Assembly: GCF_003550175.1 (NCBI RefSeq)
Contig: NZ_QXDF01000001.1
Span: 458,501-522,500, forward strand
Source of the DNA: Dichotomicrobium thermohalophilum
Lineage (GTDB): Bacteria; Pseudomonadota; Alphaproteobacteria; Rhizobiales; Rhodomicrobiaceae
Length of the DNA stretch: 64,000 bases
Direction: 5' to 3'
The notes beneath the pieces were generated by a model that made no database searches, was not told where the DNA came from, and saw only the letters and a program-made list of their open reading frames with translations. Every line of letters starts with the position of its first letter. Within the stretch, counting starts at the first letter, position 1. Positions 11,251 through 30,361 of the stretch are shown piece after piece. Made by a program: the position numbers and the translations under genes.

Positions 11251-12615
11251 TCAGGCTGGAACCGGACGAAGCAGGCCCAGTGCGCCCGGAAGAATTTGCA
11301 ATTTCCGCCAGATGTCGACGGCCATCAGAGCGTTCCAGACGACAAGAGCGGCTGCGGTCGCGATGGCGGCACCCGTCAGACCTAACGGGATGACAAGACC
11401 CGCGCAGAGCAGGCCGTGGAATATCGCCGATATGACAAGCATTCTTGCGGCCCCCGTCTCGTTCCCGGTCATGGCCATAAGGAGAAGCTGCGAGCCGGCG
11501 CTTGCCGCCAGTAACTGCCCGAGAAGCAGGATTCGCAGCGGCACTTCGCCAGCCCGAAATTCCGGGCCAAAAAGCGATAGAATCGGGCCTGCGGCGACGC
11601 TGAGGACCAGTACGATCCCACCGCCCGCCAATAGCGAAAGGAGCGCGGCGCGCCCGACAAGGTTCTGCACGTCCGCCAGTCGCCCCTCGGCATGCATCCT
11701 TGCGATGGTCGGAGCAAACATCGTGTCGATCGCGGTTCGCGGGAGCACGACGAGCATGGCCATACTGAAGATCAGAGCGTAGATACCCGCCTCGCGGTGC
11801 ATGTCACCGAGGCCGAGAACGAGAACGCCGGTCTTGTCAAACAGGGCCTCCACCGCCGTGACGACGAGGAGTGGCAGGGCGGCTTTCCGCCATGTCCCGG
11901 CGTCAATCTTGGGCGCGGCGCTGAAGAGCTGGGCCGGTTGCAGTCGGCGCATCCAGTAGGTGGCGAAAGCCAGGCCAAGCACGGTCCCCGCAACCATCGC
12001 GCTCATTACGAGAGGCGCTCCGGCCTGCTGGACCCCGAAGAGCAGAACAGCGAACACGCATATGGTCACGACGGGTTCGCGCACCACTCTTTCGGGAGCG
12101 AGAGCGGACACAACGCCACCAAACCCGCGGACAGCGGCACTGCGTAGTGTCAGCAAAGGCAGCAACAGCACAATCGGCAGCCCCACCAGGAAGGTCAGCC
12201 GCAACTCCCGGGTCATCGCTCCGCCAGAAAGCAGCACGACAGCCGCGCCCGCGGCAATCAGGGCCAGCGCGACCGTAAAAACCTTCCGCTCGGCATATGC
12301 AATGACGCCAGCCAGATGGGGCCAGTCCTGTTGCGCGGTGTATGTCGGTATGAACCGCAACAGAGCGGTGTTAAAACCGAACATGGCGAAGTAGGACAGG
12401 ACGACCATCCAGGCGAGCACATAGGCATAGATGCCGAAAGACTCCGCGCCGAAAGTCCTCGCGATCAAAAGCTGCGTGACGAAAGCCAGGCCGTGGCCGA
12501 AAATGAACACGGCGAAAGCCGCCGCTCCGCCAGTGGCGAGGCGGGCCCCCAGCGGACCATCCCGCAACAGGCTGGCGCTTCGCCCCACAACCAGTGCAAG
12601 GCGTCCCTTGATCAT
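11251..12615 (-). CDS. oligosaccharide flippase, Wzx/MATE-like (polysaccharide biosynthesis protein)
   Basis: A 454-residue membrane protein with about twelve to fourteen hydrophobic helices in the arrangement of Wzx/PST flippases, which move undecaprenyl-linked repeat units across the inner membrane. The early segment with LIARTFGAESFGIYAY is typical of the family (helix 1-2 with the FGxxSFG-like turn). The ATG at 12615 overlaps the stop of the upstream co-polymerase as ATGA, so the longer open frame reaching 12918 is not the gene. It closes the right-hand unit, and the AT-rich gap follows. Confidence 0.88.
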   Translation of the reverse strand: MIKGRLALVVGRSASLLRDGPLGARLATGGAAAFAVFIFGHGLAFVTQLLIARTFGAESFGIYAYVLAWMVVLSYFAMFGFNTALLRFIPTYTAQQDWPHLAGVIAYAERKVFTVALALIAAGAAVVLLSGGAMTRELRLTFLVGLPIVLLLPLLTLRSAAVRGFGGVVSALAPERVVREPVVTICVFAVLLFGVQQAGAPLVMSAMVAGTVLGLAFATYWMRRLQPAQLFSAAPKIDAGTWRKAALPLLVVTAVEALFDKTGVLVLGLGDMHREAGIYALIFSMAMLVVLPRTAIDTMFAPTIARMHAEGRLADVQNLVGRAALLSLLAGGGIVLVLSVAAGPILSLFGPEFRAGEVPLRILLLGQLLAASAGSQLLLMAMTGNETGAARMLVISAIFHGLLCAGLVIPLGLTGAAIATAAALVVWNALMAVDIWRKLQILPGALGLLRPVPA

Positions 12616-14528
12616 CCCACTGCCCACTTCCTGACGCGGCGGGACCATTCGGAAATGAATGCGGTGGCCCCGGCCACTGCCGACGCAGGCGCACGAACGA
12701 CCTTCGAGATGGCTTTCTTGACTCCGCCGGGCCGAGCGGGCGGAAGCAACCTTGCCCCATGCCTGGTCATGACTTCCGTCGCGTCGCCGAAGCCGTACCG
12801 GGCATGGGCTCGGGGCGCCACCTGGGTAATCACGGCGCTCACCCCTTGCGCTTCGCCGCGCGATGCGATCAGCGCGTCCACTGCGTTCCGGGCAATCCGC
12901 GTGCGGGTTGCCCCCCATTTGACGGCGAAGATCACCCGATCGGCCATCCGCGCGATCAAGCCAGCCTCGGCACGCCCAAGCGCGGGCGGCCCGTCGATGA
13001 GGATCACATCATAGCGAGAGCGGAAATCGTTGAGCGTCGTCTGCCAATACGGGTCTGAGACCAGCCTCACGGGATCGACCTGACCGGACGTCATCGGCAA
13101 CACATGAAAGTCCAGATCCGGGTCGGTCAGCACGGCTGCGTTCCGGTCCACGCGCTGTGCCATCAGGTCGACCAGGCTATAGCGCGCTTCGACGCCAAGC
13201 TCCTTCAGGACGCTTGGTGTTCTAAGGTCAAGGTCGATCAGGAGGACACGTCTTCCGATGCTGCCGGCATACTGCGCAAGGCTTACTGCCAGCGGTGTCT
13301 TGCCCTCGCCGGGTTCGCTGCTCGTGACCATCACGGTCTCGGCAGCGCTGGAGGTTTGCGCAAAGCCTCCTGCGGCTGCGACTGAGCGGATCGACTCGGC
13401 GAAAGCAGAGAACGGCTCCTGACGAAGCGAGTCGTGCGCTCCTCCGGACCGGAGACTCCGCGATCGCGGCACAAGTCCGAGACACGGGATCGACAGCGCG
13501 CTGGTGACGTCCTGCGCGCTGCGCAGGCTTTGATCGAGCCGGTCGCGCGCGATCACGAGGAAGGATGTCGCGATCAGCAGGAAGACGGCGCCCGGAACAA
13601 CGAACAGCATCGGATGCAGCGAACTTGGCTCGACGGGCGGACTGGCGGGCGAGGCGATCCGCAGGTTCGGAGCGACGGATTCGAGTTGGCGCTGCAGCTC
13701 GCGCCGGCGCTGTTCCAGTTCGACCAGGAGCTGTGCCTTGCTGCTTGCGCTCGCCTTGGACTCCGCGGCCTCCGAGGTTGGCGATCGACCGTCTGGTCCG
13801 CCCCCTGCCTCGATCGGCGTTTCGGGTTCGAATTGCTGGCGCATCTGCTCGCGCGCGGTATCAATGTCGCTGCGAAGTCGGGAGATTCCGCTGTCCACGC
13901 GCGCAAGTTCGTCTCGGATTTGATCTGCCTGCTGGCTGACCTGCTGCGCGAGGTAGACCTCTGCCATGCGGTTGGCCAGATTCGCCGCCTCGTTCGGGTC
14001 CGGCAGGGTCACGCGGATTGCGATGATGCGCGATGACATGAGCTGGTTGATGGAAATCCGTTCGCCGAGCCTTTCGACGAGACGCTCGTTCTTGCCGTTT
14101 TCGAATTGGGGCAGCGGCGCGATGACCTTCCGCAGGAAATCAGGCATCCGGAGCATCACCATATGGGTGTCGAGGATCATCTGCCTGTCAGCCGCATCGG
14201 CAGGCGCTGTCTGTCCGGCTTCTGGTCCCCATCCCGGCAAGACTTCGATTTGTGCCATCGCCGTATAATCTGGCGGGATCTGTCTGGCCGCCAGCGCCAG
14301 CAGAACCGTGCCGATGACGGTCACCCCAAGTATTATCCACCACCGGCGCAACAGCACGGACCAGAGCTGGTGCAGGCTCGGTTCACCCTGCGTCCCGGCT
14401 GCCTGTCCGGTCTCAGCCTGTGGCGTCGCGGCCAGCTTGGAGAACTGTCGACCGGTCAGACTCTGCGCTGGCTGTCTGTCTGGGTTGGCGGCCTTCGGGC
14501 GGCGCTGTTCGGACGTCCGCTCATACAT
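12612..14528 (-). CDS. Wzc-like polysaccharide co-polymerase with BY-kinase domain
   Basis: This protein controls polymer length and export. The N-terminal Wzz domain spans the first TM helix (residues 64-81), a periplasmic region with a helical hairpin (about 190-285) and a second helix (306-327). The cytoplasmic ATPase has Walker A (GEGKTPLA, 407-414), Walker A' (VLLIDLDLRTP, 428-438) and Walker B (VILIDGPP, 508-515). A tyrosine cluster normally autophosphorylated at the C-terminus of Wzc is absent: the last 60 residues contain no tyrosine. The gene overlaps the glycosyltransferase stop by eight bases. Either phosphorylation occurs elsewhere or only the ATPase cycle is used. Confidence 0.9.
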   Translation of the reverse strand: MYERTSEQRRPKAANPDRQPAQSLTGRQFSKLAATPQAETGQAAGTQGEPSLHQLWSVLLRRWWIILGVTVIGTVLLALAARQIPPDYTAMAQIEVLPGWGPEAGQTAPADAADRQMILDTHMVMLRMPDFLRKVIAPLPQFENGKNERLVERLGERISINQLMSSRIIAIRVTLPDPNEAANLANRMAEVYLAQQVSQQADQIRDELARVDSGISRLRSDIDTAREQMRQQFEPETPIEAGGGPDGRSPTSEAAESKASASSKAQLLVELEQRRRELQRQLESVAPNLRIASPASPPVEPSSLHPMLFVVPGAVFLLIATSFLVIARDRLDQSLRSAQDVTSALSIPCLGLVPRSRSLRSGGAHDSLRQEPFSAFAESIRSVAAAGGFAQTSSAAETVMVTSSEPGEGKTPLAVSLAQYAGSIGRRVLLIDLDLRTPSVLKELGVEARYSLVDLMAQRVDRNAAVLTDPDLDFHVLPMTSGQVDPVRLVSDPYWQTTLNDFRSRYDVILIDGPPALGRAEAGLIARMADRVIFAVKWGATRTRIARNAVDALIASRGEAQGVSAVITQVAPRAHARYGFGDATEVMTRHGARLLPPARPGGVKKAISKVVRAPASAVAGATAFISEWSRRVRKWAVG

Positions 14529-15888
14529 TGGCGTTCCTGTTGCCTCCGAAATGTTCTGAGCGGCTCGGGTTGGCCGTTGGCAAATTTTCGGGGATCATCG
14601 CGTGCGCCTGCTGCCGCGCGGGGTGGTCTACCGAGCCAGTCTGGGCGCTCTCCGTTTTGGTTTGGGCGGTGGCGCCCGCAGCGAGCCGCTCGTAGGCGGT
14701 CGCATAGGCGTCGACGATCGCCTCGAGGCTGAAAGTCTGAACAACGCGCCGGCGGGCGCGCTGTCCCATTTCGTGCGCGGAGTCCCGATCGTGCAGGAGG
14801 TCAAGGATGCGATCGGCGAGCTGTCGCGGTTGACCGGCGGTAACGACAAAGCCGCTTTCTCCGTCCTCGACCACATCGGGGCATCCGGGCATGTTCGTCG
14901 TGACGATCGGCAGGCCAGCCAGGCCAGCCTCAAGCAGGACGCGCGGAACGCCTTCACAAAGCTCGGTGGGGAAGGCGAAGATGTCAGCCATGCTTAGAAG
15001 TGAGGGAACGTCGGACCTTGGCCCGATCGCCATGACGTAGGGCGCGTGACGGTCGATTTCGGCCTGCGTTACGGCCAGCTTGCCTTCTGTCTCGCGCGAC
15101 CCGACGAGCAGGAAGCGGACGCCGGGCCGTACGGCATACACCAGCGCGGCGGCCTCCAGGAGGGCGGGTATGCCCTTGATGCGCGAGAGACGCGTGACGG
15201 TGATGACGACTTCAGCGTCCGCGAGACCGAGGGCCGTCCTCAACTCTTCAGCTGATGGTCCTTCGCTGCGCCGTTTCTCGAAGTTGGCGATATCTGCACC
15301 GGAGCCAGGAATGAGGCAGCTTCCACCGCGACCGATCATGTGCCGTTCTTTGAAGAACGCCTCATCGCTCCGGTTCTGGAATACGGTCAGCGTCGTCCAT
15401 GGCGCCGTTGCCCGATGCAATATGTTGAAAGCCGGCCGGAGCGCCCGAGCGGGCAAAGACTGTGAGGAGAACAGCCAGCCAAGCCCGTTAATCGTCCGCA
15501 TGACGTGGGTTCCCGGTCTGGCGCGCGCGGCCGCTGGCACCAGGATGCCGGGCTTGGTATCGAAGCTGTGCACGATATCGGGCTTATGCTCGGCTATGAT
15601 GCGCCGGAGATCCCGCAGGGCGCGCCAGTCGGCCAGCGGATTGGCAAATCGGTCGAAGCTGTACGGGTAATACCGGATACCGTTGCGCGCGAAGGGGTCG
15701 CTTGAGCACGTTCCCGCAGCGGCCACGTCGAAGCCCATTTTTGCGAGTTCGAGCAAGAACGGAATGCGCAGGTCGTGATCCGACCCGCCGACCAGCAGGA
15801 TGCGCGGTGGCACCGGTTGCCGCACTCGGTCGGTCCCTGCGACAGACGTTGATGAGGATTGAGCCGTTTGCCGCGCGACGCCCGTCAT
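14521..15888 (-). CDS. glycosyltransferase family 4
   Basis: A GT-B enzyme of about 455 residues that adds a sugar to the lipid-linked repeat unit at the cytoplasmic face. The N-terminal half has the segment HSFDTKPGILVPAAAR and TINGLGWLFSS, typical of the PglA/WbnK-like subgroup that adds HexNAc or related sugars to undecaprenyl-diphosphate glycans. The C-terminal donor domain contains ADIFAFPTELCEGVPRVLLEAGLAG with the E-x7-E motif of retaining GT4 enzymes. The final 60 residues after the GT domain are low-complexity and poorly conserved in appearance. The start overlaps the export gene stop as ATGA. Donor and acceptor sugars cannot be read from sequence. Confidence 0.9.
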   Translation of the reverse strand: MTGVARQTAQSSSTSVAGTDRVRQPVPPRILLVGGSDHDLRIPFLLELAKMGFDVAAAGTCSSDPFARNGIRYYPYSFDRFANPLADWRALRDLRRIIAEHKPDIVHSFDTKPGILVPAAARARPGTHVMRTINGLGWLFSSQSLPARALRPAFNILHRATAPWTTLTVFQNRSDEAFFKERHMIGRGGSCLIPGSGADIANFEKRRSEGPSAEELRTALGLADAEVVITVTRLSRIKGIPALLEAAALVYAVRPGVRFLLVGSRETEGKLAVTQAEIDRHAPYVMAIGPRSDVPSLLSMADIFAFPTELCEGVPRVLLEAGLAGLPIVTTNMPGCPDVVEDGESGFVVTAGQPRQLADRILDLLHDRDSAHEMGQRARRRVVQTFSLEAIVDAYATAYERLAAGATAQTKTESAQTGSVDHPARQQAHAMIPENLPTANPSRSEHFGGNRNANV

Positions 15889-17264
15889 CTGGCATCCTCC
15901 CGCTGCAGATGGGTGAGGCCAAGATCGGCAACGCTGTCGTCATCCCTGGAGTGTTCACCAGTGCGCAGGACGCCTATGCCCATTGGCCCTGGATCGCCAA
16001 GTCGGACCTCGATGACGTCGCCCGGCAAGACTTCAAAATCCTCGTTTTCGACATAACGCTGGATCCCGTCCGGCATCCGGCGGTGCACAATGAGCTTCGG
16101 ACCGGTGCCGTCGCGGCCATTGCTTGATGGTCCAAAGGACCTTTGCGGCGGGACGGACCTCGCCAAACGCAGCTTGCGTGTCGCAGCCCGCGCCTCGATG
16201 CGCGCGGCAGCCTCCTCGGCCATTGCCTGTTCCAGCTCGTCGTAAAGGTCGCTCTTGCGGTCTGCCTCCAGCTTGTGCAACTGCAACTGGCGCTCCGCCC
16301 GCTGGCGCTTCGCTTCGCTCAGTCGCGCCTGGGCCTGCAGAAGCCGCGTGGAGGAGAAAAGCGTGGCACGGCGCGCATCGGACAGTCGCTTCGACGTGAC
16401 AATCCCTTCGGATCTGAGGTTGCGGAGCGACTCCAGATCGGTGCTGTCGGCCTCGTAAGATTTCTCCTCGACCGCCACCTGCTGTTCGACGATCGCGATC
16501 TCTTCATCGAGCTGCTCGATAAAATTCTTGATGGCGGTACGCTCGCGCTCGAAGCGCGCGTTGCGGTTTTCCAGTTGCGTCACGGCCTGAGCGGCGATCC
16601 GGTCCCGGATGGCCGGCTGCAGCGGCAGCTCCGAGGGGATCGCGCTCTTCGCAGCCGCTGGCTTTGGCGACGCCTTGCCCAGTTCAGCCTTGATCCGCCA
16701 GATGCGTGCGCGCTGCCGCGCGATGGTCTGCCAATGCGCCTCGCGTTCCGCCGAGGCATCCAGGGCGCTGAACGCGACGCTGACATTCGTATCATTGCGC
16801 AGGCTGATGTAGCCGCCCGCCAGGGCAATCGCCTCGCGAATGGACATCGGCCCGCGATACGAATACTCGCCGGGCTGCGTTACGTCGCCTTTGACGTAGA
16901 TCGGGCGATAGCTGGCTATGCTGACGATCACGTCATCCACGCCAATCGCGGCCGCTCTCTCCCTGCCGCCCGTCGCGGTGAAGGTAACGACTTGGCCGCT
17001 CAGCGCCGACTGGATGCGCCTGCGAAGTTCGGCCACGGTGAGGCCGGCCACGGACAAGGTGCCGGCAATCGGAATCGCGATCGTTCCATCCGTCTCTATG
17101 CGCACGCGGCGCTCCAGGTCAGGCATGCTGAACACGTTGATCTCGATGACATCGCCCGGACCGGTGCGGTATTCTGCGCCGGCAAGCGTGGCGGGCGCAG
17201 CCACGCTCAGCAGGGCGCCGAGAGCGATAGCGACTGTTCTGGCTGTGATCCGCGACAGGTTCAT
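15885..17264 (-). CDS. polysaccharide export protein, ExoF-like with long coiled coil
   Basis: An outer-membrane export (OPX) relative. A Sec signal peptide occupies residues 1-29 (cleavage near TLAGAEY) and has no lipobox cysteine, unlike E. coli Wza. The Poly_export domain follows (YRTGPGDVIEINVFSMPDLERRVRIETDG), then SLBB-like segments, then a coiled coil of about 130 residues rich in Glu, Arg and Lys. A second SLBB-like segment ends in FEVLPGDVIEVRL. This layout matches ExoF-type proteins of rhizobia, where the coiled coil bridges the periplasm instead of forming a Wza barrel. I use the ATG at 17264, which overlaps the upstream stop as ATGA; the open frame extends further but without coding character. 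Confidence 0.88.
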   Translation of the reverse strand: MNLSRITARTVAIALGALLSVAAPATLAGAEYRTGPGDVIEINVFSMPDLERRVRIETDGTIAIPIAGTLSVAGLTVAELRRRIQSALSGQVVTFTATGGRERAAAIGVDDVIVSIASYRPIYVKGDVTQPGEYSYRGPMSIREAIALAGGYISLRNDTNVSVAFSALDASAEREAHWQTIARQRARIWRIKAELGKASPKPAAAKSAIPSELPLQPAIRDRIAAQAVTQLENRNARFERERTAIKNFIEQLDEEIAIVEQQVAVEEKSYEADSTDLESLRNLRSEGIVTSKRLSDARRATLFSSTRLLQAQARLSEAKRQRAERQLQLHKLEADRKSDLYDELEQAMAEEAAARIEARAATRKLRLARSVPPQRSFGPSSNGRDGTGPKLIVHRRMPDGIQRYVENEDFEVLPGDVIEVRLGDPGPMGIGVLRTGEHSRDDDSVADLGLTHLQREDAR

Positions 17265-18553
17265 TGTGCCTCCGAGGTCCGGGACGTCGCCTTCGGTGGA
17301 TTCCACGTCGTCACGAAAGCCGAGACGGGCGCGCCGGGCTTGCCCCAGTTGCTGGCCCATATGACGCGCGATCCGTCTGGGGAGGGCGAGCCGTGCGCCT
17401 CGCTCAGGTACTCGGCGTCGGCGCCGTAAGTGTGGGCCAGGCGGTGGACCTCGCCGCTGCCGTCGATCCGCAGCGCAACGACCTCCTGGTAGTACGGGGC
17501 CGGGTAGTCGAGCTTCCTGGTGTTGGCGTAAGACCCCGAGAAACTCACGAAGACCCATCCCGGCAGCTTGATATTGCGGGCCGAGATGTGGCTGGCGTTG
17601 CTGTAGGGGATCAGGCTGGTCACGGCGCCGTCCGAAAGCCGGCGCTTGACGACGTGGAACTTGTCCGGCTCGGATTTGCTGACGCCGACGTAAACATCCT
17701 CGCCGTCGGCATCTATGGTCATGTCGCCGTGACCGGGCCGATGGTGCTCCGGCCAGTGCTGGATCAGCTTGCCGTCTGTCGTGAAGACATAAGCCGGTTC
17801 ATGACCGTCGTCCGTCCTCTGCGCGACGTAAACGTAGCGGCCGCTCGGGGAGATCGTGGCGTAGTGGTTCTCGCCTTCCAGGCCATCGAGCATTATGTCG
17901 GGGTGTTTCTGGCCGTCCCGCAGGTCCAGGGCAAACGCGACGAGCTTGCCTTCGGCATCGAGGCCGCGCAGAACGATCAGGTCGCCGTCGGCCGACAGGT
18001 TGCCTTTGTACGGACCGAAAACGAGCGCGCGATAGTCTTCGGTCTTCCACAGGCTCTTCCATGTCCTGCTTCTCGGGTTCCACGCCGACACCCCGGAGGG
18101 ATACACGCACACCATGATGTCCGGGTCGCGCGGGTGCCATTTGCAGTCATGGCTGCCAGACACCTGCCGAACGAACAGCGGCTCATAGGTCTGCCCGTCG
18201 ACGAAGCACAGGCCCGGACAACCTTCGGTGATGAGCAGCAATGACTGGTCTGCGTTCCACGCCTGCGTGCTGGAGTAGCGATGCCGGCAGGCTTTCGGTC
18301 CGCAAACCACGCCCGGCAGGAAGAGAGCTTCGGGGTCGGTGACACGCGTGAATGTCGTGCTGAAGGTGGGGTCCGTGACAGTTTCCAGATAGTCCGGAAC
18401 CGGGAGAGGTGCCGTTTTCAGCAGGTCCCGGTTTTCTGAAGCGCGGCTGACCTGCGCCACGGCGACGACCGTGATCGTCACCGCGACGACCAGGCCGAGC
18501 CAGGGCGAGAAGGCCCTGCGCAATCTTGATGGCTTGTTGGTCCCGCACCGCAC
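17261..18553 (-). CDS. membrane-anchored or secreted beta-propeller protein of unknown function
   Basis: A 430-residue protein with an N-terminal hydrophobic helix (about 14-35) acting as signal or anchor, followed by repeats typical of seven-bladed propellers: ISPSGRYVYVAQ, NLSADGDLIVL, TIDADGEDVYVG and SPDGSRVIWASNWG. Cysteines cluster early (GVVCGPKACRH, CPGLC), and may form periplasmic disulfides. The fold and the SPDG-x-W-AS-NWG ending recall oligogalacturonate lyase and TolB-like propellers, so a polysaccharide-binding or polysaccharide-cleaving role is plausible in this locus. The metal-binding histidines of characterised lyases cannot be assigned with confidence. It starts six bases after the DegT stop and overlaps the export gene by ATGA. 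Confidence 0.72.
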   Translation of the reverse strand: MRCGTNKPSRLRRAFSPWLGLVVAVTITVVAVAQVSRASENRDLLKTAPLPVPDYLETVTDPTFSTTFTRVTDPEALFLPGVVCGPKACRHRYSSTQAWNADQSLLLITEGCPGLCFVDGQTYEPLFVRQVSGSHDCKWHPRDPDIMVCVYPSGVSAWNPRSRTWKSLWKTEDYRALVFGPYKGNLSADGDLIVLRGLDAEGKLVAFALDLRDGQKHPDIMLDGLEGENHYATISPSGRYVYVAQRTDDGHEPAYVFTTDGKLIQHWPEHHRPGHGDMTIDADGEDVYVGVSKSEPDKFHVVKRRLSDGAVTSLIPYSNASHISARNIKLPGWVFVSFSGSYANTRKLDYPAPYYQEVVALRIDGSGEVHRLAHTYGADAEYLSEAHGSPSPDGSRVIWASNWGKPGAPVSAFVTTWNPPKATSRTSEAQ

Positions 18554-23412: not shown

Positions 23413-23953
23413 GAAAAAACGTTTTATCGAGAAATAAAAAACAATTTAGCGCGCGAACGGCCTCAAAGTGTTTGTGATTAAAACGGTATTTTTGAATGCC
23501 GACTGGATCAAGCGCTCGGATATATGATGGTGAAGTAGATCTGAAGCGCCGGGCGCAAATTTTGAATGGTGGCGACCATCTTTAAATAAAAATGATTCAG
23601 GGCAGATAGTATTTGAGATGGGGTTTCGCGCACTCCGGCTCGCGAACAGCGTCGTTCGCACCCCTCACGCGTCACGAGCGACTCGCTTTAACGTCGGAGC
23701 GCTCGGCGTGAGATGGCGCTGTTGCAGAGGAAAGCGCCAGCCCGCTTCGCCTGGAGTCTCCGGCGAGGTCTGGGGGATAATAGGTGCTGCTTGCGCCGAA
23801 AGGGCTTTGCCTCGTTTCGATGGCCCGAATCCGTTTCAGCCCCAGCCGCAGTTCCGACGTTCTGTCGCTGGCACAGACCTTGCTACTATTACGCCGGAGG
23901 GGCGCGCGTCTTTGAGCGGCGCGCCGAAACACGGCATACAAGAACGAGGACAA
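23413..23953. other. gap between exopolysaccharide locus and gamma-glutamyltransferase gene
   Basis: No convincing gene lies here. The left part (23409-23450 and 23570-23600) is rich in A and T and should hold the promoter of the right-hand exopolysaccharide unit, although I see no clean -35/-10 pair. The right part, 23630-23950, is GC-rich and open in the frame of the next gene, but its translation looks non-coding and the next gene's ribosome-binding site lies at 23945-23949. Confidence 0.45.
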
Positions 23954-25549
23954 ATGCTGGATACACTACGCTCGAAAGGCGCGATGATCACCGCGCCGCA
24001 CCATCTCGCCGCGCAGTCCGGTCTTGCGGTCATGCGTGAGGGCGGCAATGCCCTCGAGGCAATGATCGCGGCGGCCGCCACGGTAGCGGTCATCTATCCG
24101 CACATGAACGCCATAGGCGGCGATGGTTTCTGGCTGATCGCCGAGCCGGGTCAAGCGCCCGTAGGCATCGACGCCTGCGGTCCTGCTGCGGCGCTGGCCG
24201 ACTCGGCCTTTTACGAAGCGCATGGCGTCACCGAAACGATCCCGGCGCGCGGCGGGCTGGCGGCGCTGACGGTCGCGGGAACGATTGCCGGTTGGGAAGC
24301 GGCGCACGCTTTGGCCCAGGAGGCGGGCGGGCGCCTGCCGCTCGAGCGGCTGCTTGCGGATGCCGTCCACTACGCACGCGAGGGCATTGTCATCACGGAC
24401 AGCATGGCGGCGTTGACGGAATCGAAGCGCGCCGAACTCGCGCATGCACCGGGCTTCGCGGAAACTTTCTTGCTCGGTGGACAGGCGCTGCAGCCGGGTG
24501 CCGTGCTCCGCCAGCCGCGCTTGGCGGACACGCTGGCGCAGCTTTCGCGCGCCGGGCTGCGCGACTTTTACGACGGCGATATTGCCCGCGCGCTCGCGTA
24601 TGATCTGGAGGCGGCGGGCAGCCCGGTTCGCTTGACCGACCTTGAAGGCTTCGCCGCGCAGCGGGTCGCGCCGATCAGTGTCGCGCTCGATGCCGGCACG
24701 CTCTATAACATGCCACCGCCGACACAGGGGCTGGCCTCGCTGCTGATCCTCGCGATCTACGAGCGGCTGCGCGCCGAGCAGGCCGAGTGTTTCGACCATG
24801 TGCACCGGATCGTCGAGGCGACCAAGCGTGCCTTCCTGATCCGCGACGCGCATGTCACCGACCCGCGCTTCGCCAGCGCCGCGCCGGCGGATTTCCTCAC
24901 GCCGGAGCGCATCGCCGCCGAGGCGGAAGCGATAGACGTCGAACGCGCCGCGCCCTGGCCCGCGCCGGCGCCGGGCGGCAACGACACGATCTGGATGGGC
25001 GCGGTAGACGCGGATGGCCGCGTCGTCAGCTTCATCCAGTCGATCTACTGGGAGTACGGCTCCGGCGTCGTCTCGCCCGCGACGGGCGTGCTCTGGCAGA
25101 ACCGGGGCATCAGTTTCTCGCTCGACCCGAGCGCAGGGAACCCGCTTCAGCCCGGGCGTAAGCCGTTCCACACGCTGAACCCGGCCCTCGCGCGTTTCAG
25201 TGATGGGCGCGTGATGACCTACGGCACCAAGGGCGGCGAGGGCCAGCCGCAAACGCAGGCCGCGATCTTCTCGCGTTACGCCATGCATGGCCAGCCGCTT
25301 CAACACGCCGTGACCGCGCCGCGATGGTTGCTAGGCCGGACTTGGGGCGAGCAGAGCACGAGCCTGAAGATCGAGGACGGCTTTGGCGATGACTTGATCG
25401 CGCGTCTACGCCACGCGGGGCATGATGTCGAGGTCACAGAGCGGTTCGCGCAAATGATGGGCCATGCCGGCGCGATCGTCCGCCGCCCGGACGGCACGCT
25501 GGAGGGCGCCAGCGATCCGCGCAGCGACGGTTCGGTCGCCGCGCTCTAG
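23954..25549 (+). CDS. gamma-glutamyltransferase family (Ntn-hydrolase) protein
   Basis: A 531-residue homologue of gamma-glutamyltransferase. The family start (TAPHHLAAQSGLAVMREGGNALEAMIAAAA) is intact, and the autoprocessing site is Thr345 in GGNDTIWMGAVD, after which a small subunit of about 187 residues would be released. The GEGQPQTQ segment is the usual oxyanion/glycine-rich region in a variant form. The absence of a signal peptide points to a cytoplasmic enzyme, as in the group acting on non-glutathione substrates (acylases, oxamate-like or cephalosporin acylase relatives). GAGGA lies five bases before the ATG. It runs into the TauE/SafE gene, with overlapping stops. Substrate unknown. 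Confidence 0.87.
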   Translation: MLDTLRSKGAMITAPHHLAAQSGLAVMREGGNALEAMIAAAATVAVIYPHMNAIGGDGFWLIAEPGQAPVGIDACGPAAALADSAFYEAHGVTETIPARGGLAALTVAGTIAGWEAAHALAQEAGGRLPLERLLADAVHYAREGIVITDSMAALTESKRAELAHAPGFAETFLLGGQALQPGAVLRQPRLADTLAQLSRAGLRDFYDGDIARALAYDLEAAGSPVRLTDLEGFAAQRVAPISVALDAGTLYNMPPPTQGLASLLILAIYERLRAEQAECFDHVHRIVEATKRAFLIRDAHVTDPRFASAAPADFLTPERIAAEAEAIDVERAAPWPAPAPGGNDTIWMGAVDADGRVVSFIQSIYWEYGSGVVSPATGVLWQNRGISFSLDPSAGNPLQPGRKPFHTLNPALARFSDGRVMTYGTKGGEGQPQTQAAIFSRYAMHGQPLQHAVTAPRWLLGRTWGEQSTSLKIEDGFGDDLIARLRHAGHDVEVTERFAQMMGHAGAIVRRPDGTLEGASDPRSDGSVAAL

Positions 25550-26370
25550 AATGCGGAAGTGTAAAGCCGCACCGCGGTGATCAGCAGAAACAGGCCGAAC
25601 GCCCGGCGCAACCAGACAGACGGCAGCGCATGGGCGATGCGCGCGCCGACCGGGGCGAGGCTCGTGGAAAGAAGCGCGATGATCGCCGCGCCGGGCAGCA
25701 GCACGTAACCCAGGTAGCCGTCCGCGAACGCGGTCTGCGACCAGCCGCTGAGCACGAAGCCGATCCCTCCGGGCACCGAGATGATGAGCCCCAGCACGGA
25801 GGCCGTCGCGACGGCCCGATGGATCGGCATGTTGAACAGGCTCAACAGCGGCACGCCGACGGTCCCGCCGCCGATGCCCATCACCACCGACACGCCGCCA
25901 ATAAACAGGCCCAGCGCGCTTTGGCCAACGGCCCCCGGCAACTTATCGGCGAGTCGCGCGCCCTCTGGGCGCAGCAGCATGTTCCCAGCAACGAGCAGCG
26001 CGACGGTGGCAAACACGATCGTCAGCACCGCCCCGGCGACGAAGGCCGCCAGTAGCGTTCCAGTGATCACGCCTGCGAACACCGAGGGCGCCAGCGTCCT
26101 GAGCGTGCCGGTATCGACCGCGCCGCGGCGGTAATGCGCGCGCGCCGAGCTGATCGAGGTCGGGATGATGACGGCGAGCGAGGTGCCCACGGCCACATGC
26201 ATCCGCAGCGCCTCGGGCACGCCGACGAATGGCAGCATCTCGAACAGGACCGGCACGATCACGATCCCGCCGCCGACGCCGAGCAGCCCCGCGACCACGC
26301 CGGCGACTGCGCCGCACGCGCCGAGCACGGCGGCCAGCGCCAGCAGGTCCTGCCATGTCCCCAAGTCCAT
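25546..26370 (-). CDS. TauE/SafE family sulfite/organosulfur exporter
   Basis: A 274-residue membrane protein with about eight hydrophobic helices and the two family repeats: AGLLGVGGGIVIVPVL near the start and the GGVSVVMGIGGGTVGVPLLSLF segment in the second half. Members export sulfite, sulfoacetate or related C2-C3 sulfonates. I start it at MDLGTW (26370), five bases after the TRAP large-permease stop; a longer open frame has no membrane character. Placement at the end of a TRAP unit suggests uptake of an organosulfur compound by TRAP and disposal of a sulfur product here. Confidence 0.88.
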   Translation of the reverse strand: MDLGTWQDLLALAAVLGACGAVAGVVAGLLGVGGGIVIVPVLFEMLPFVGVPEALRMHVAVGTSLAVIIPTSISSARAHYRRGAVDTGTLRTLAPSVFAGVITGTLLAAFVAGAVLTIVFATVALLVAGNMLLRPEGARLADKLPGAVGQSALGLFIGGVSVVMGIGGGTVGVPLLSLFNMPIHRAVATASVLGLIISVPGGIGFVLSGWSQTAFADGYLGYVLLPGAAIIALLSTSLAPVGARIAHALPSVWLRRAFGLFLLITAVRLYTSAF

Positions 26371-26375
26371 CCCGC

Positions 26376-27698
26376 TCACCAGCCGATCGCGTCCGGCAGC
26401 CAGGTTGCCAGCTCGGGGAACAGGAATAGCAGAGCCAGCCCGACAAGTTGAATGCCGATGAAGGGCAGGACCCCGCGATAAATCGCCAGTGTTGTCACCT
26501 GTGGTGGGGCGACACCCTTCAGGAAGAAAAGCGCCCAGCCGAACGGCGGCGTCAGGAACGAGGTCTGCAGGTTCATCGCAACCAGGATCGCGATCCAGGC
26601 CATGTCCACGTCGGCGGCGACGAAGATCGGCAGGAACATCGGCAGCGCGATGTAGGAAATCTCGATCCACTCCAGGAAGAAGCCGAGAACGAACAGGATC
26701 AGCATCAGGAACAGAAGCTGGCCGTCCAGACCGCCGGGGATCATGGCGAAGGCATCTTGTACCAGGTGCTCGCCGCCGAGCCCGCGAAAGGCCAGCGCGA
26801 AAGGCTGTGCGCAGATCAGGATGAAGAAGCACATGGCGCTGGTGGCGAGGCTGGAACGCATGACCTCAGTCATCACCGACAGCGACAGACGCCCGGAAGC
26901 GGCGGCCAGCAGGATGCTGCCCATCGCGCCCATCGACGCGGCTTCGGTTGGCGCGGCCACGCCCCCGATGATTGATCCGAGCACGAGGATGACAAGGCCG
27001 ATGGGCGGGATCACGACCAGGATGATCCGCTGGATGAGCCGCAGGGTGCTGACCTCCTGGCGCTCGGCCAGCGGGATAGGCGGCACGGTGTGCGGCAGAA
27101 AGACGCCCAGCAGGATCAGATAGAGGAAGAACAGCCCGGCGAGGATAAGGCCCGGTATCAGCGCGGCGGCGAAAAGCGTGCCCACTGACTCGCCCATGAT
27201 GTCCGCCAGCAGGATCAGCACGAGGCTCGGCGGGATGATCTGCCCCAGCGTGCCTGAGGCGCAGATCACACCGCAGGCTACGCCGTGGTCGTAGCCCCGT
27301 CGGATCAGCGGGCTCAGCGCGATCAGCCCGGCGGTCACCACCGTCGCGCCGACGATGCCGGAGGACGCGCCCATCAGGACGCCGACAACCACGATCGCCA
27401 TTGCCATCCCGCCGCGCAGCCGTCCCATCGCCAGCCCGATCACGTCGAGCAGGTCCTCCGCCAGCCGCGACTTCTCCAGCATGACGCCCATGAAGATGAA
27501 CAGGGGCAGCGCCAGTAGTGTGTAGTTGGTCACGACTCCGTAGATGCGCGCGGGGACCAGATTGAACAGCGTCGCGCCGAAGCCGAGATAGCCGAACACG
27601 AATCCGGAGACGGCAAGGCTGATCGCCACCGGCACGCCGATGATGATCAGCACGAAAAAGCCGCCGATCATGGCGATGGCCAGCAGCTCAGTTTCCAT
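26376..27698 (-). CDS. TRAP transporter large permease subunit (DctM-like)
   Basis: A 440-residue integral membrane protein with about twelve helices. The family signatures are visible: GVPVAISLAVSGFVFGYLG near the N-terminus, GASSGIVGATVVTAG, and IIPPSLVLILLADIMGESVGTLF. It carries out sodium-driven import together with the small subunit and the periplasmic binding protein. Its ATG lies 11 bases before the end of the small-permease gene, so the two subunits are translationally coupled. Confidence 0.94.
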   Translation of the reverse strand: METELLAIAMIGGFFVLIIIGVPVAISLAVSGFVFGYLGFGATLFNLVPARIYGVVTNYTLLALPLFIFMGVMLEKSRLAEDLLDVIGLAMGRLRGGMAMAIVVVGVLMGASSGIVGATVVTAGLIALSPLIRRGYDHGVACGVICASGTLGQIIPPSLVLILLADIMGESVGTLFAAALIPGLILAGLFFLYLILLGVFLPHTVPPIPLAERQEVSTLRLIQRIILVVIPPIGLVILVLGSIIGGVAAPTEAASMGAMGSILLAAASGRLSLSVMTEVMRSSLATSAMCFFILICAQPFALAFRGLGGEHLVQDAFAMIPGGLDGQLLFLMLILFVLGFFLEWIEISYIALPMFLPIFVAADVDMAWIAILVAMNLQTSFLTPPFGWALFFLKGVAPPQVTTLAIYRGVLPFIGIQLVGLALLFLFPELATWLPDAIGW

Positions 27699-28230
27699 GA
27701 TGGTCGCTCTTGGAAGTGTTCGTTTGGCTCTGCAGCAGCGCCTGTGCGGTGCGCGCGACCTGCACGAGCGCCTGAAGCGCCAGCAGCGCGAAGCCCAACG
27801 GAATGAAAGACTTGAGCACGAAGCGGTATGGCAGTCCGCCGGGATCCGGCGAGCCTTCGTTCATGGCGAGGCTTTGACCGACATATGGCAGGGACAGCTT
27901 GATGACGATCACCGAGATCGCGAGCGTCAGCACGGCAGAGAGCAGTCGCACCAGCGCCTGCGTCCACGGCCCGAAACGCGCATAGAGGATGTCGACGCGC
28001 ACCTCGTCGCCGCGATGTAGCGTGAAGGACATGCCGATCAGCATGGTGACGGCCAGCAAGTGCCATTCCAGCTCCTGCAGCGCCACCAGACCGTAGGCGA
28101 ACAGGTACCGCGCCAGCACGTCGAAGGCGACCAGCAGGACCAGCCCCAGCCCGAGCCAGGCTGTGAGCCGGCCAGCCTGACCGACCAGCTTGTCCGCATG
28201 GTCGATCAGGCCGGAGAGCGATCCTTTCAT
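27688..28230 (-). CDS. TRAP transporter small permease subunit (DctQ-like)
   Basis: A 180-residue protein with four hydrophobic helices and the usual DctQ marker ELEWHLLAVTMLIGMSFTLHRGDEVRVDI. It lies between the large permease and the binding protein gene in the standard PQM order for transcription. It starts 21 bases after the binding-protein stop. Confidence 0.92.
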   Translation of the reverse strand: MKGSLSGLIDHADKLVGQAGRLTAWLGLGLVLLVAFDVLARYLFAYGLVALQELEWHLLAVTMLIGMSFTLHRGDEVRVDILYARFGPWTQALVRLLSAVLTLAISVIVIKLSLPYVGQSLAMNEGSPDPGGLPYRFVLKSFIPLGFALLALQALVQVARTAQALLQSQTNTSKSDHHGN

Positions 28231-28251: not shown

Positions 28252-29337
28252 TCAGCTCAGATATTCGTGGTACGGCTTCTCGCTGATCGTCGCCCAGGCC
28301 CGGTGCTTGTCGCGGAAGGCCATGAAGGCGTCGTGGACCTTCTTGGTCTGCGGGTCCTTGGCGGCCTCGGCTTCGAGGACGTCGAAGGTGATCTCGCGCA
28401 TCTTGCTGACGATCTCGGCGGGCAGAACGTCGGCCTTCACGTCATAATTCTTCACCAGGTCATCGAGCGCGTCGGCGTTGTTGGCCTCGGACCAGGTATG
28501 GCTTTCGATGTTGCAGGCCATCGCCGCGGCCTTGACGATCTCCTGCAGATCGGTCGGCAGCGATTCCCAGGTCTGCAGGTTGATCAGGAGTTCGGTGACG
28601 TTCGACGGCTCGTGCCAGCCGGTGGTGTAGTAGTATTTCGCGGCCTTTTGCAGCCCGAGACGGCGATCCTGATACGGGCCGACGAACTCCGCCGCGTCGA
28701 TCACGCCGCGTTCCAGCGCGGGAAAGATTTCGCCGCCCGGCAGCAGCTTCACGTCGACACCCAGCTCCTTGTAGACTTTGCCAGCGAGGCCGGGGATGCG
28801 CATTTTCAGGCCGTTGAAGTCCTCGACGGACTCGATCGGCTCGCGGAACCAGCCGGTCATCTGCACGCCGGTATTGCCCATCGGAAAGGCGATCAGGCCG
28901 AGAGGCTTGTAAAGCTCCTGCCACAGCTCCAGACCGCCGCCATGGTAAAGCCAGGCGTTCACGCCCTGGAAGTTGAGTCCGAAGGGAACCGTGGTGAAAT
29001 ACTGCGCAGCAAACAGCTTGCCGGCCCAGAAATAGGCGTTGGCCGCGTTCATCTCGACCGTGCCGGCCTGCACGGCGTCGAAGCCCTCAAGTGCGGGGAT
29101 CAGCTCGCCGGCGGCGAAATGCTGGATCTTGAGCCGGCCGCCGGACATCGCGTCGACCTTCTTGCAGAAGTCGGTCGGGCTGCCGGGGCCGACCGTGTAG
29201 AACGGCGCGCCCGGCGGGTAGGCGTTCGTCATCTAGAGCGTGAAGGTCTCCTGCGCCCGTGCGATGGAGGGGGCGGCGAGGCCGGCCGTGGCGGCGGAGG
29301 CGGCGCCGGCTGTCTTCAGGAAATCCCGTCGTTTCAT
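28252..29337 (-). pseudogene. TRAP substrate-binding protein (DctP/TakP-like) with in-frame amber codon
   Basis: The frame encodes a Tat signal (MKRRDFLKTAGAAS..., residues 1-29), then QETFTL, then TAG at 29235-29233, then MTNAYPPGAP and about 325 residues of an intact binding protein, all in the same frame. Relatives usually have a residue such as Lys at this place, so a single AAG-to-TAG change would explain it. Translation could restart at the ATG directly after the amber codon, but that product would lack a signal peptide. The mature part resembles the TakP/mannitol-type group (GVIDAAEFVGPYQDRRLGLQKAAKYY, with the GWHEP segment). It could be a true null, a suppressed stop or a base-call error. 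Confidence 0.82.
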
Positions 29338-29452
29338 GCCGATGTCTCCCTTGGTTGTTGCGACGCAATCCGCGTAGCAACGGCCGTGCCAGAGCCTCAT
29401 AGCGCTGAATTTCTTGGATAAATCGAGCTGACGGTGATTATGATGCAAAGAT

Positions 29453-29584: not shown

Positions 29585-30361
29585 ATGGGAGACGTGCCGC
29601 AAAACAGCGAGAAGAGGGCCACGCGCGCGGAGATCGTATGCCGCCAACTGGAGGACGAGATTGTTTCGGGCGCGCTCGCGCCGGGGACGCGGCTGGAGGA
29701 AAAGGCGTTGGCCGCGCGATTTCGCATGTCGCGCACGCCGGTGCGGGAGGCGCTACAGCAACTCGTCTCCAAATCACTCGCGATACGCCAGCCCTATCGC
29801 GGGGTTGTGGTTGCGGAAGTATCGCGCGAACGGCTGGACGGTCTGTTCGAGGCGATGGCCGAGGTCGAGGCGATGTGCGGACGCATCGCCGCGCAGCGAA
29901 TGACCACATGGGAGCGTGCTGAGTTGACCCGGATCAACGAGCGACTTGCCGATGCCTCGCGCGACCGCGGTCGGGCGGGCTACGAGGCGCTCAACGAGCA
30001 GTTCCACGAGTTGATTTACCACGGCACCCACAACGAAACGCTCGCCAACATGGCGCTGTCGCTGCGGTTGGAGCTGTCGCCTTACCGGCGCTTTCAGTTC
30101 CGCAATGCCGAGCGGATCGCGCGCTCGCATAGTGAACATCAGGCGATCGTCGATGCCATAATCCTGCGTGATCCGTCGGCGGCTGAGATGCAATTGCGCA
30201 AGCATCTGCTCAGCGCAGCGGAGGCGTCGCTTTCCGCGGTCAGCGAAGCCAGCGTTCAGAATACGCGATCGGGACGCGCGGCGATAACGCGGCTTGACGA
30301 GCGGCCCGGAACACCGGACAGCCGACCTCAAGAGCGCGTGCGTACCGAACCCACATCATGA
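29585..30361 (+). CDS. GntR family regulator, FadR subfamily (FCD domain)
   Basis: A 258-residue protein with an N-terminal winged helix (IVCRQLEDEIVSGALAPGTRLEEKALAARFRMSRTPVREALQQL, about residues 17-60) and a helical FCD ligand domain (about 85-215). The FCD metal site is suggested by the N-E-x-F-H-x-L-I-Y segment and a later HxxI region. It is transcribed divergently from the TRAP genes and probably represses them until a carboxylate ligand is bound. The tail after about residue 220 is low-complexity. The start has a poor ribosome-binding site; a GTG three codons later is an alternative. Confidence 0.9.
   Translation: MGDVPQNSEKRATRAEIVCRQLEDEIVSGALAPGTRLEEKALAARFRMSRTPVREALQQLVSKSLAIRQPYRGVVVAEVSRERLDGLFEAMAEVEAMCGRIAAQRMTTWERAELTRINERLADASRDRGRAGYEALNEQFHELIYHGTHNETLANMALSLRLELSPYRRFQFRNAERIARSHSEHQAIVDAIILRDPSAAEMQLRKHLLSAAEASLSAVSEASVQNTRSGRAAITRLDERPGTPDSRPQERVRTEPTS

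Follow-up and report, generated by a model that had tools for sequence, protein, structure and literature searches.

TRAP transporters need a binding protein in the periplasm. The dctP gene described here resembles the Tat-leader proteins of the DctP family (TRAP) in its Tat leader, its PF03480 domain, its conserved arginine and the dctQ and dctM genes downstream. Unlike them, it has an in-frame stop at codon 35, which is absent from the 80 relatives read. Bacterial pseudogenes made recently by a single nonsense mutation are a known class, and dctP is similar to these as well: there is one stop, the rest is intact, the relatives are unbroken and constraint reaches to the recent past. It differs from such pseudogenes in that the stop lies at the border of leader and mature protein with an ATG next to it, so that a leaderless product may still arise. 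The last comparison is with gene pairs coupled by termination and reinitiation, in which a stop and a start are likewise adjacent (0 nt apart here; PMC10666635). In contrast to such pairs, the two portions of dctP form a single gene in the 80 relatives read, and there is no sign that the arrangement was selected.

In the 64,000-nt stretch of DNA that was analysed (the window), an in-frame TAG on the minus strand divides a single frame in two: a Tat leader of 34 codons and a DctP-type part of 326. The frame runs from the ATG at 29337 through the TAG (codon 35) and the ATG at 29232 to the terminal stop at 28254-28252. The TAG at 29235-29233 is in frame both with the first ATG and with the 326-codon ORF (29232-28252), and the gap between it and the second ATG is 0 nt. 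A previous sequence-only reading of this DNA had stated that a TAG interrupts an otherwise intact frame at this position, and this was confirmed. The parts of the split gene are:

29236..29337, minus strand: Tat export signal and the first six mature residues, a 34-codon open frame (NCBIfam Tat-signal model TIGR01409, 24.8 bits vs a cut-off of 16.7)
29233..29235, minus strand: in-frame TAG with an ATG directly after it; a sense codon in 80/80 relatives read
28252..29232, minus strand: the remaining 326 codons of the DctP-type TRAP solute-binding protein, which are open and conserved (PF03480, 178.5 bits vs a gathering score of 23.4; structure match 7ug8)

The translated leader is MKRRDFLKTAGAASAATAGLAAPSIARAQETFTL. 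Its expected AxA cleavage site presumably lies six residues (QETFTL) before the stop, which would place the stop at mature residue 7. The stop had been described as lying exactly after the signal peptide; it is in the region of the leader/mature border, but six residues past the expected site. The split is more than a chance juxtaposition of two frames, since all 80 relatives read continue from leader to mature part without a stop.

The downstream ORF belongs to the DctP family. Besides PF03480 it exceeds the threshold of NCBIfam NF037995 (58.1 vs 50), and it falls under that of TIGR00787 (66.9 vs 175.05). Among solved structures the best match is 7ug8, "Ketoacid-binding protein", and other DctP proteins are also among the best. 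Because of these matches, the substrate of the operon is likely a carboxylate. Residue 145 of the 326-codon part, within LKMRIPG, is an arginine here and in 80/80 relatives; we take it to be the conserved arginine of the family, going by the motif rather than by a structure. PF04290 and PF06808 lie directly downstream, as expected for the family, while the TAG breaks the frame that in the family leads uninterrupted from the export signal into the binding domain. For the conserved DctP arginine a ligand-binding role is described in PMC4646407.

The neighbouring genes are:

27688..28230, minus strand: DctQ small permease subunit (PF04290, 78.3 bits; matched in 80/80 relative loci)
26376..27698, minus strand: DctM large permease subunit (PF06808, 251.4 bits, and TIGR00786 over cut-off; 79/80 relative loci)
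25546..26832, minus strand: TauE/SafE-type exporter ORF as listed (PF01925 at residues 170-422)
23618..25549, plus strand: gamma-glutamyltranspeptidase (PF01019 at residues 137-638; found in 63/80 relative loci)
29585..30361, plus strand: GntR/FCD-type regulator, divergent from dctP (PF00392 and PF07729; a GntR match in 32/80 relative loci)

The counts come from TBLASTN at 1e-10 on either strand of the 80 relative loci, with at most ~4 kb per side; those for gamma-glutamyltranspeptidase and GntR miss genes further off, and a GntR match in a relative may be a different regulator. The first part of the listed TauE ORF overlaps dctM in another frame. The count for this ORF (74/80) was dropped because some of its matches, which came from the overlapping part, fall inside the dctM of relatives. 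The starts listed for the TauE-type and the gamma-glutamyltranspeptidase ORFs are probably too far upstream and the true ones internal, as both ORFs begin well before their domains. The earlier statement that the transporter subunits, exporter and regulator are intact agrees with the Pfam domains detected in DctQ, DctM, the GntR regulator and the TauE-type ORF. A link of the dctP operon with gamma-glutamyl compounds is no more than a suggestion from the gamma-glutamyltranspeptidase neighbour. In a scan for promoters and terminators, the single promoter-like site is at 29415-29444 (plus strand; 0.1 expected) and points towards the GntR gene; the minus strand gave none, and no terminator-like site was found. 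Further away in the window (11254-17798, minus strand) there are genes of polysaccharide synthesis and export: Polysacc_synt, a Wzz/AAA chain-length protein, a glycosyltransferase and a Poly_export/SLBB protein.

A genome scan found 254 relatives of dctP, of which the best 80 (74-90% identity) were read at the site of the stop. The codon before the conserved MTNAY is Lys in 67, Arg in 12 and Gln in 1 of these 80, and a stop in none. The stop is thus not a conserved, programmed feature. MTNAY itself is found in 80/80 relatives read, and its Met is an internal residue there. The earlier proposal that one base change from AAG suffices to create the TAG fits the predominance of Lys codons. Among these best 80, the nearest relatives are from Filomicrobium and similar genomes, with 88-90% protein identity. 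In the same order 199 genomes were searched and, besides the gene's own genome, 6 have a match at 1e-150 or better, all with an open frame; the five read at the site have Lys (4) or Asn (1), and all six may be among the 80 relatives. The 7 other genomes of the family contain no dctP match at 1e-100 or better, with the caveat that two of them are 82 and 88% complete.

From this distribution, the dctP operon looks accessory in its family. The stop appears to be specific to this genome as far as is testable, with this one genome covering the genus; the lineage for which this specificity was tested is broad, with nearest relatives only 88-90% identical in protein. No relatives of dctP were found in viral contigs. 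Among plasmids 92 records match it, the best with 73.4% DNA identity over 94% of the query.

Outside the stop, dctP looks constrained, judging by its substitution pattern. Compared with its five nearest relatives it has a dN of 0.063-0.073 and a dS of 0.96-1.57, in line with the values among those relatives themselves (dN 0.032-0.085, dS 1.08-2.06), although dS is near saturation. It departs from columns invariant in the 80 relatives at 1/129 (Leu to Met), and in a leave-one-out comparison the relatives show 0 to 3 sole departures of this kind. The 95% upper bound on neutral changes since a loss of constraint is 0.016 per non-synonymous site (291 sites in invariant columns). Low divergence and the single departure mean that the lesion is young, or not real, or that the protein is still used; the constraint test fits all three alike.

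The sequence-only reading had left the choice between a recent knockout, a base-call error and a suppressed stop. We consider it probable that a recent nonsense mutation knocked out the binding protein of one TRAP uptake operon: relatives are intact at the site, and the remainder of dctP is conserved and has no further break. At codon 35 the Tat leader's frame comes to its end, and the 34-residue product would be unable to bind substrate. Since the codon next to the stop is an ATG, ribosomes that terminate may start again there and produce a 326-residue binding domain that has no export signal. Such a domain would remain in the cytoplasm and leave the DctQ-DctM permease without a periplasmic partner. 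As TRAP uptake depends on a periplasmic binding protein, high-affinity uptake by the dctP operon should be lost. Other TRAP systems remain: the genome has 12 DctP-family places, including dctP (counted from behind its stop), and no internal stops are listed for them. The rest of the operon would be undecayed because the lesion is young. Against a knockout, the permease genes and the regulator keep their domains, and the absence of other lesions would be expected equally if the consensus were wrong or the protein were still used. A stop of this kind would be an ordinary event.

The main rival, rather unlikely but to be taken seriously, is that the stop is an error or a minority variant in the assembly consensus and that the living cell has an intact gene. 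The functional appearance of the rest of dctP and of the permease genes agrees with it, and so does what seems to be missing from the assembly. No 16S rRNA was found in the genome, and tRNA-Ile(GAT) and tRNA-Ala(TGC), which are usually located in rRNA operons, are absent from its 45 tRNAs. Together these suggest an assembly without the rRNA operon, which metagenome bins often lack, and part of the genome is probably missing from it. However, the 16S result is weak evidence, as the same search missed the gene in 5/14 control genomes, and the assembly is given with 7 contigs, a completeness of 99.84% and a contamination of 0.05%. An erroneous consensus is also not favoured by the window scan, in which no second clear in-gene stop was seen; the scan is weak, covers only stops and ranked the dctP stop 42nd by score. 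Based on rough codon usage, it gave 49 stops flanked on either side by coding-like sequence; 40 of these are under another chosen ORF. The other 9 include the dctP stop itself, two gene boundaries (34689 and 51942, with a different Pfam family on each side), the end of dctP (28254), one stop antisense to dctQ (28018), one antisense to a longer ORF (57221), and 49649, 59689 and 59764.

The two remaining rivals keep the protein in use. Readthrough at a useful level, by a suppressor tRNA or near-cognate decoding, would still provide an exported binding protein; the visible constraint on dctP and the lack of another lesion agree with it, but we regard it as highly improbable. An amber suppressor was sought among the 45 tRNA genes of the assembled genome, all decoded with ARAGORN, and none reads UAG. 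The two PylS (TIGR02367) matches are far under the cut-off (29.3 and 19.9 vs 178.15 bits; 1/14 controls exceeds it), and TAG ends 13/45 window ORFs in a rough choice by codon usage, so a suppressed stop is unlikely, and genome-wide recoding of TAG was rejected on the same count. Conserved recoding of UAG would show as a stop in relatives, and none of the 80 read has one here. The RNA surrounding the stop does not exceed shuffled sequences in stability (z 1.07; 173/200 fold at least as well). It is very unlikely, too, that the split is used, with reinitiation yielding a cytoplasmic substrate-binding protein with a function of its own, such as that of a ligand sensor or sink. The ATG behind the stop has an AGGAG 15 nt upstream (29252-29248), but this is further than usual for a ribosome binding site. 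As the Met of MTNAY is internal in all 80 relatives read, the ATG did not evolve as a start, and none of the 80 has the stop-ATG layout. The gap of 0 nt is within the range of -8 to +10 nt taken as predictive for reinitiation in PMC10666635. The same source nevertheless associates efficient coupling chiefly with overlaps of 4 or 1 nt and reports that at +2 nt the efficiency was cut by 5, 20 and 70% in three E. coli pairs. A combination, in which the stop-ATG acts as a fate switch between occasional readthrough to an exported protein and reinitiation to a cytoplasmic ligand sink or sensor, is barely credible.

Beyond annotation, the importance of the probable knockout is slight. Automatic annotation could place the start of the gene at 29232 and yield a 326-residue binding protein, which would hide the cut-off export signal. 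If the suppressed or reinitiated reading were true, the locus would be an unusual route for moving a periplasmic protein between compartments.

Some candidates from the tRNA search were set aside. A tRNA-Leu with the anticodon printed as "tag" reads CUA, not UAG. The tRNA-Sec model matched 15 places, two of them over the cut-off, and these are the positions of tRNA-Ser(tga) and tRNA-Ser(cga). One of the 45 tRNA genes is a partial tRNA-Lys(CTT) (C1:1246509-1246583), a second copy of the 3' end of the complete tRNA-Lys(CTT) at C1:1213428. Of the 8 integrase-family matches in the genome, two are located between these copies, near the partial one, and the copies look like the ends of an integrated element of ~33 kb (C1:1213428-1246583). 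The premature dctP stop also forms one of the rare CTAG words of the 64,000-nt window, in which 22 are observed vs ~214 expected from base composition alone.
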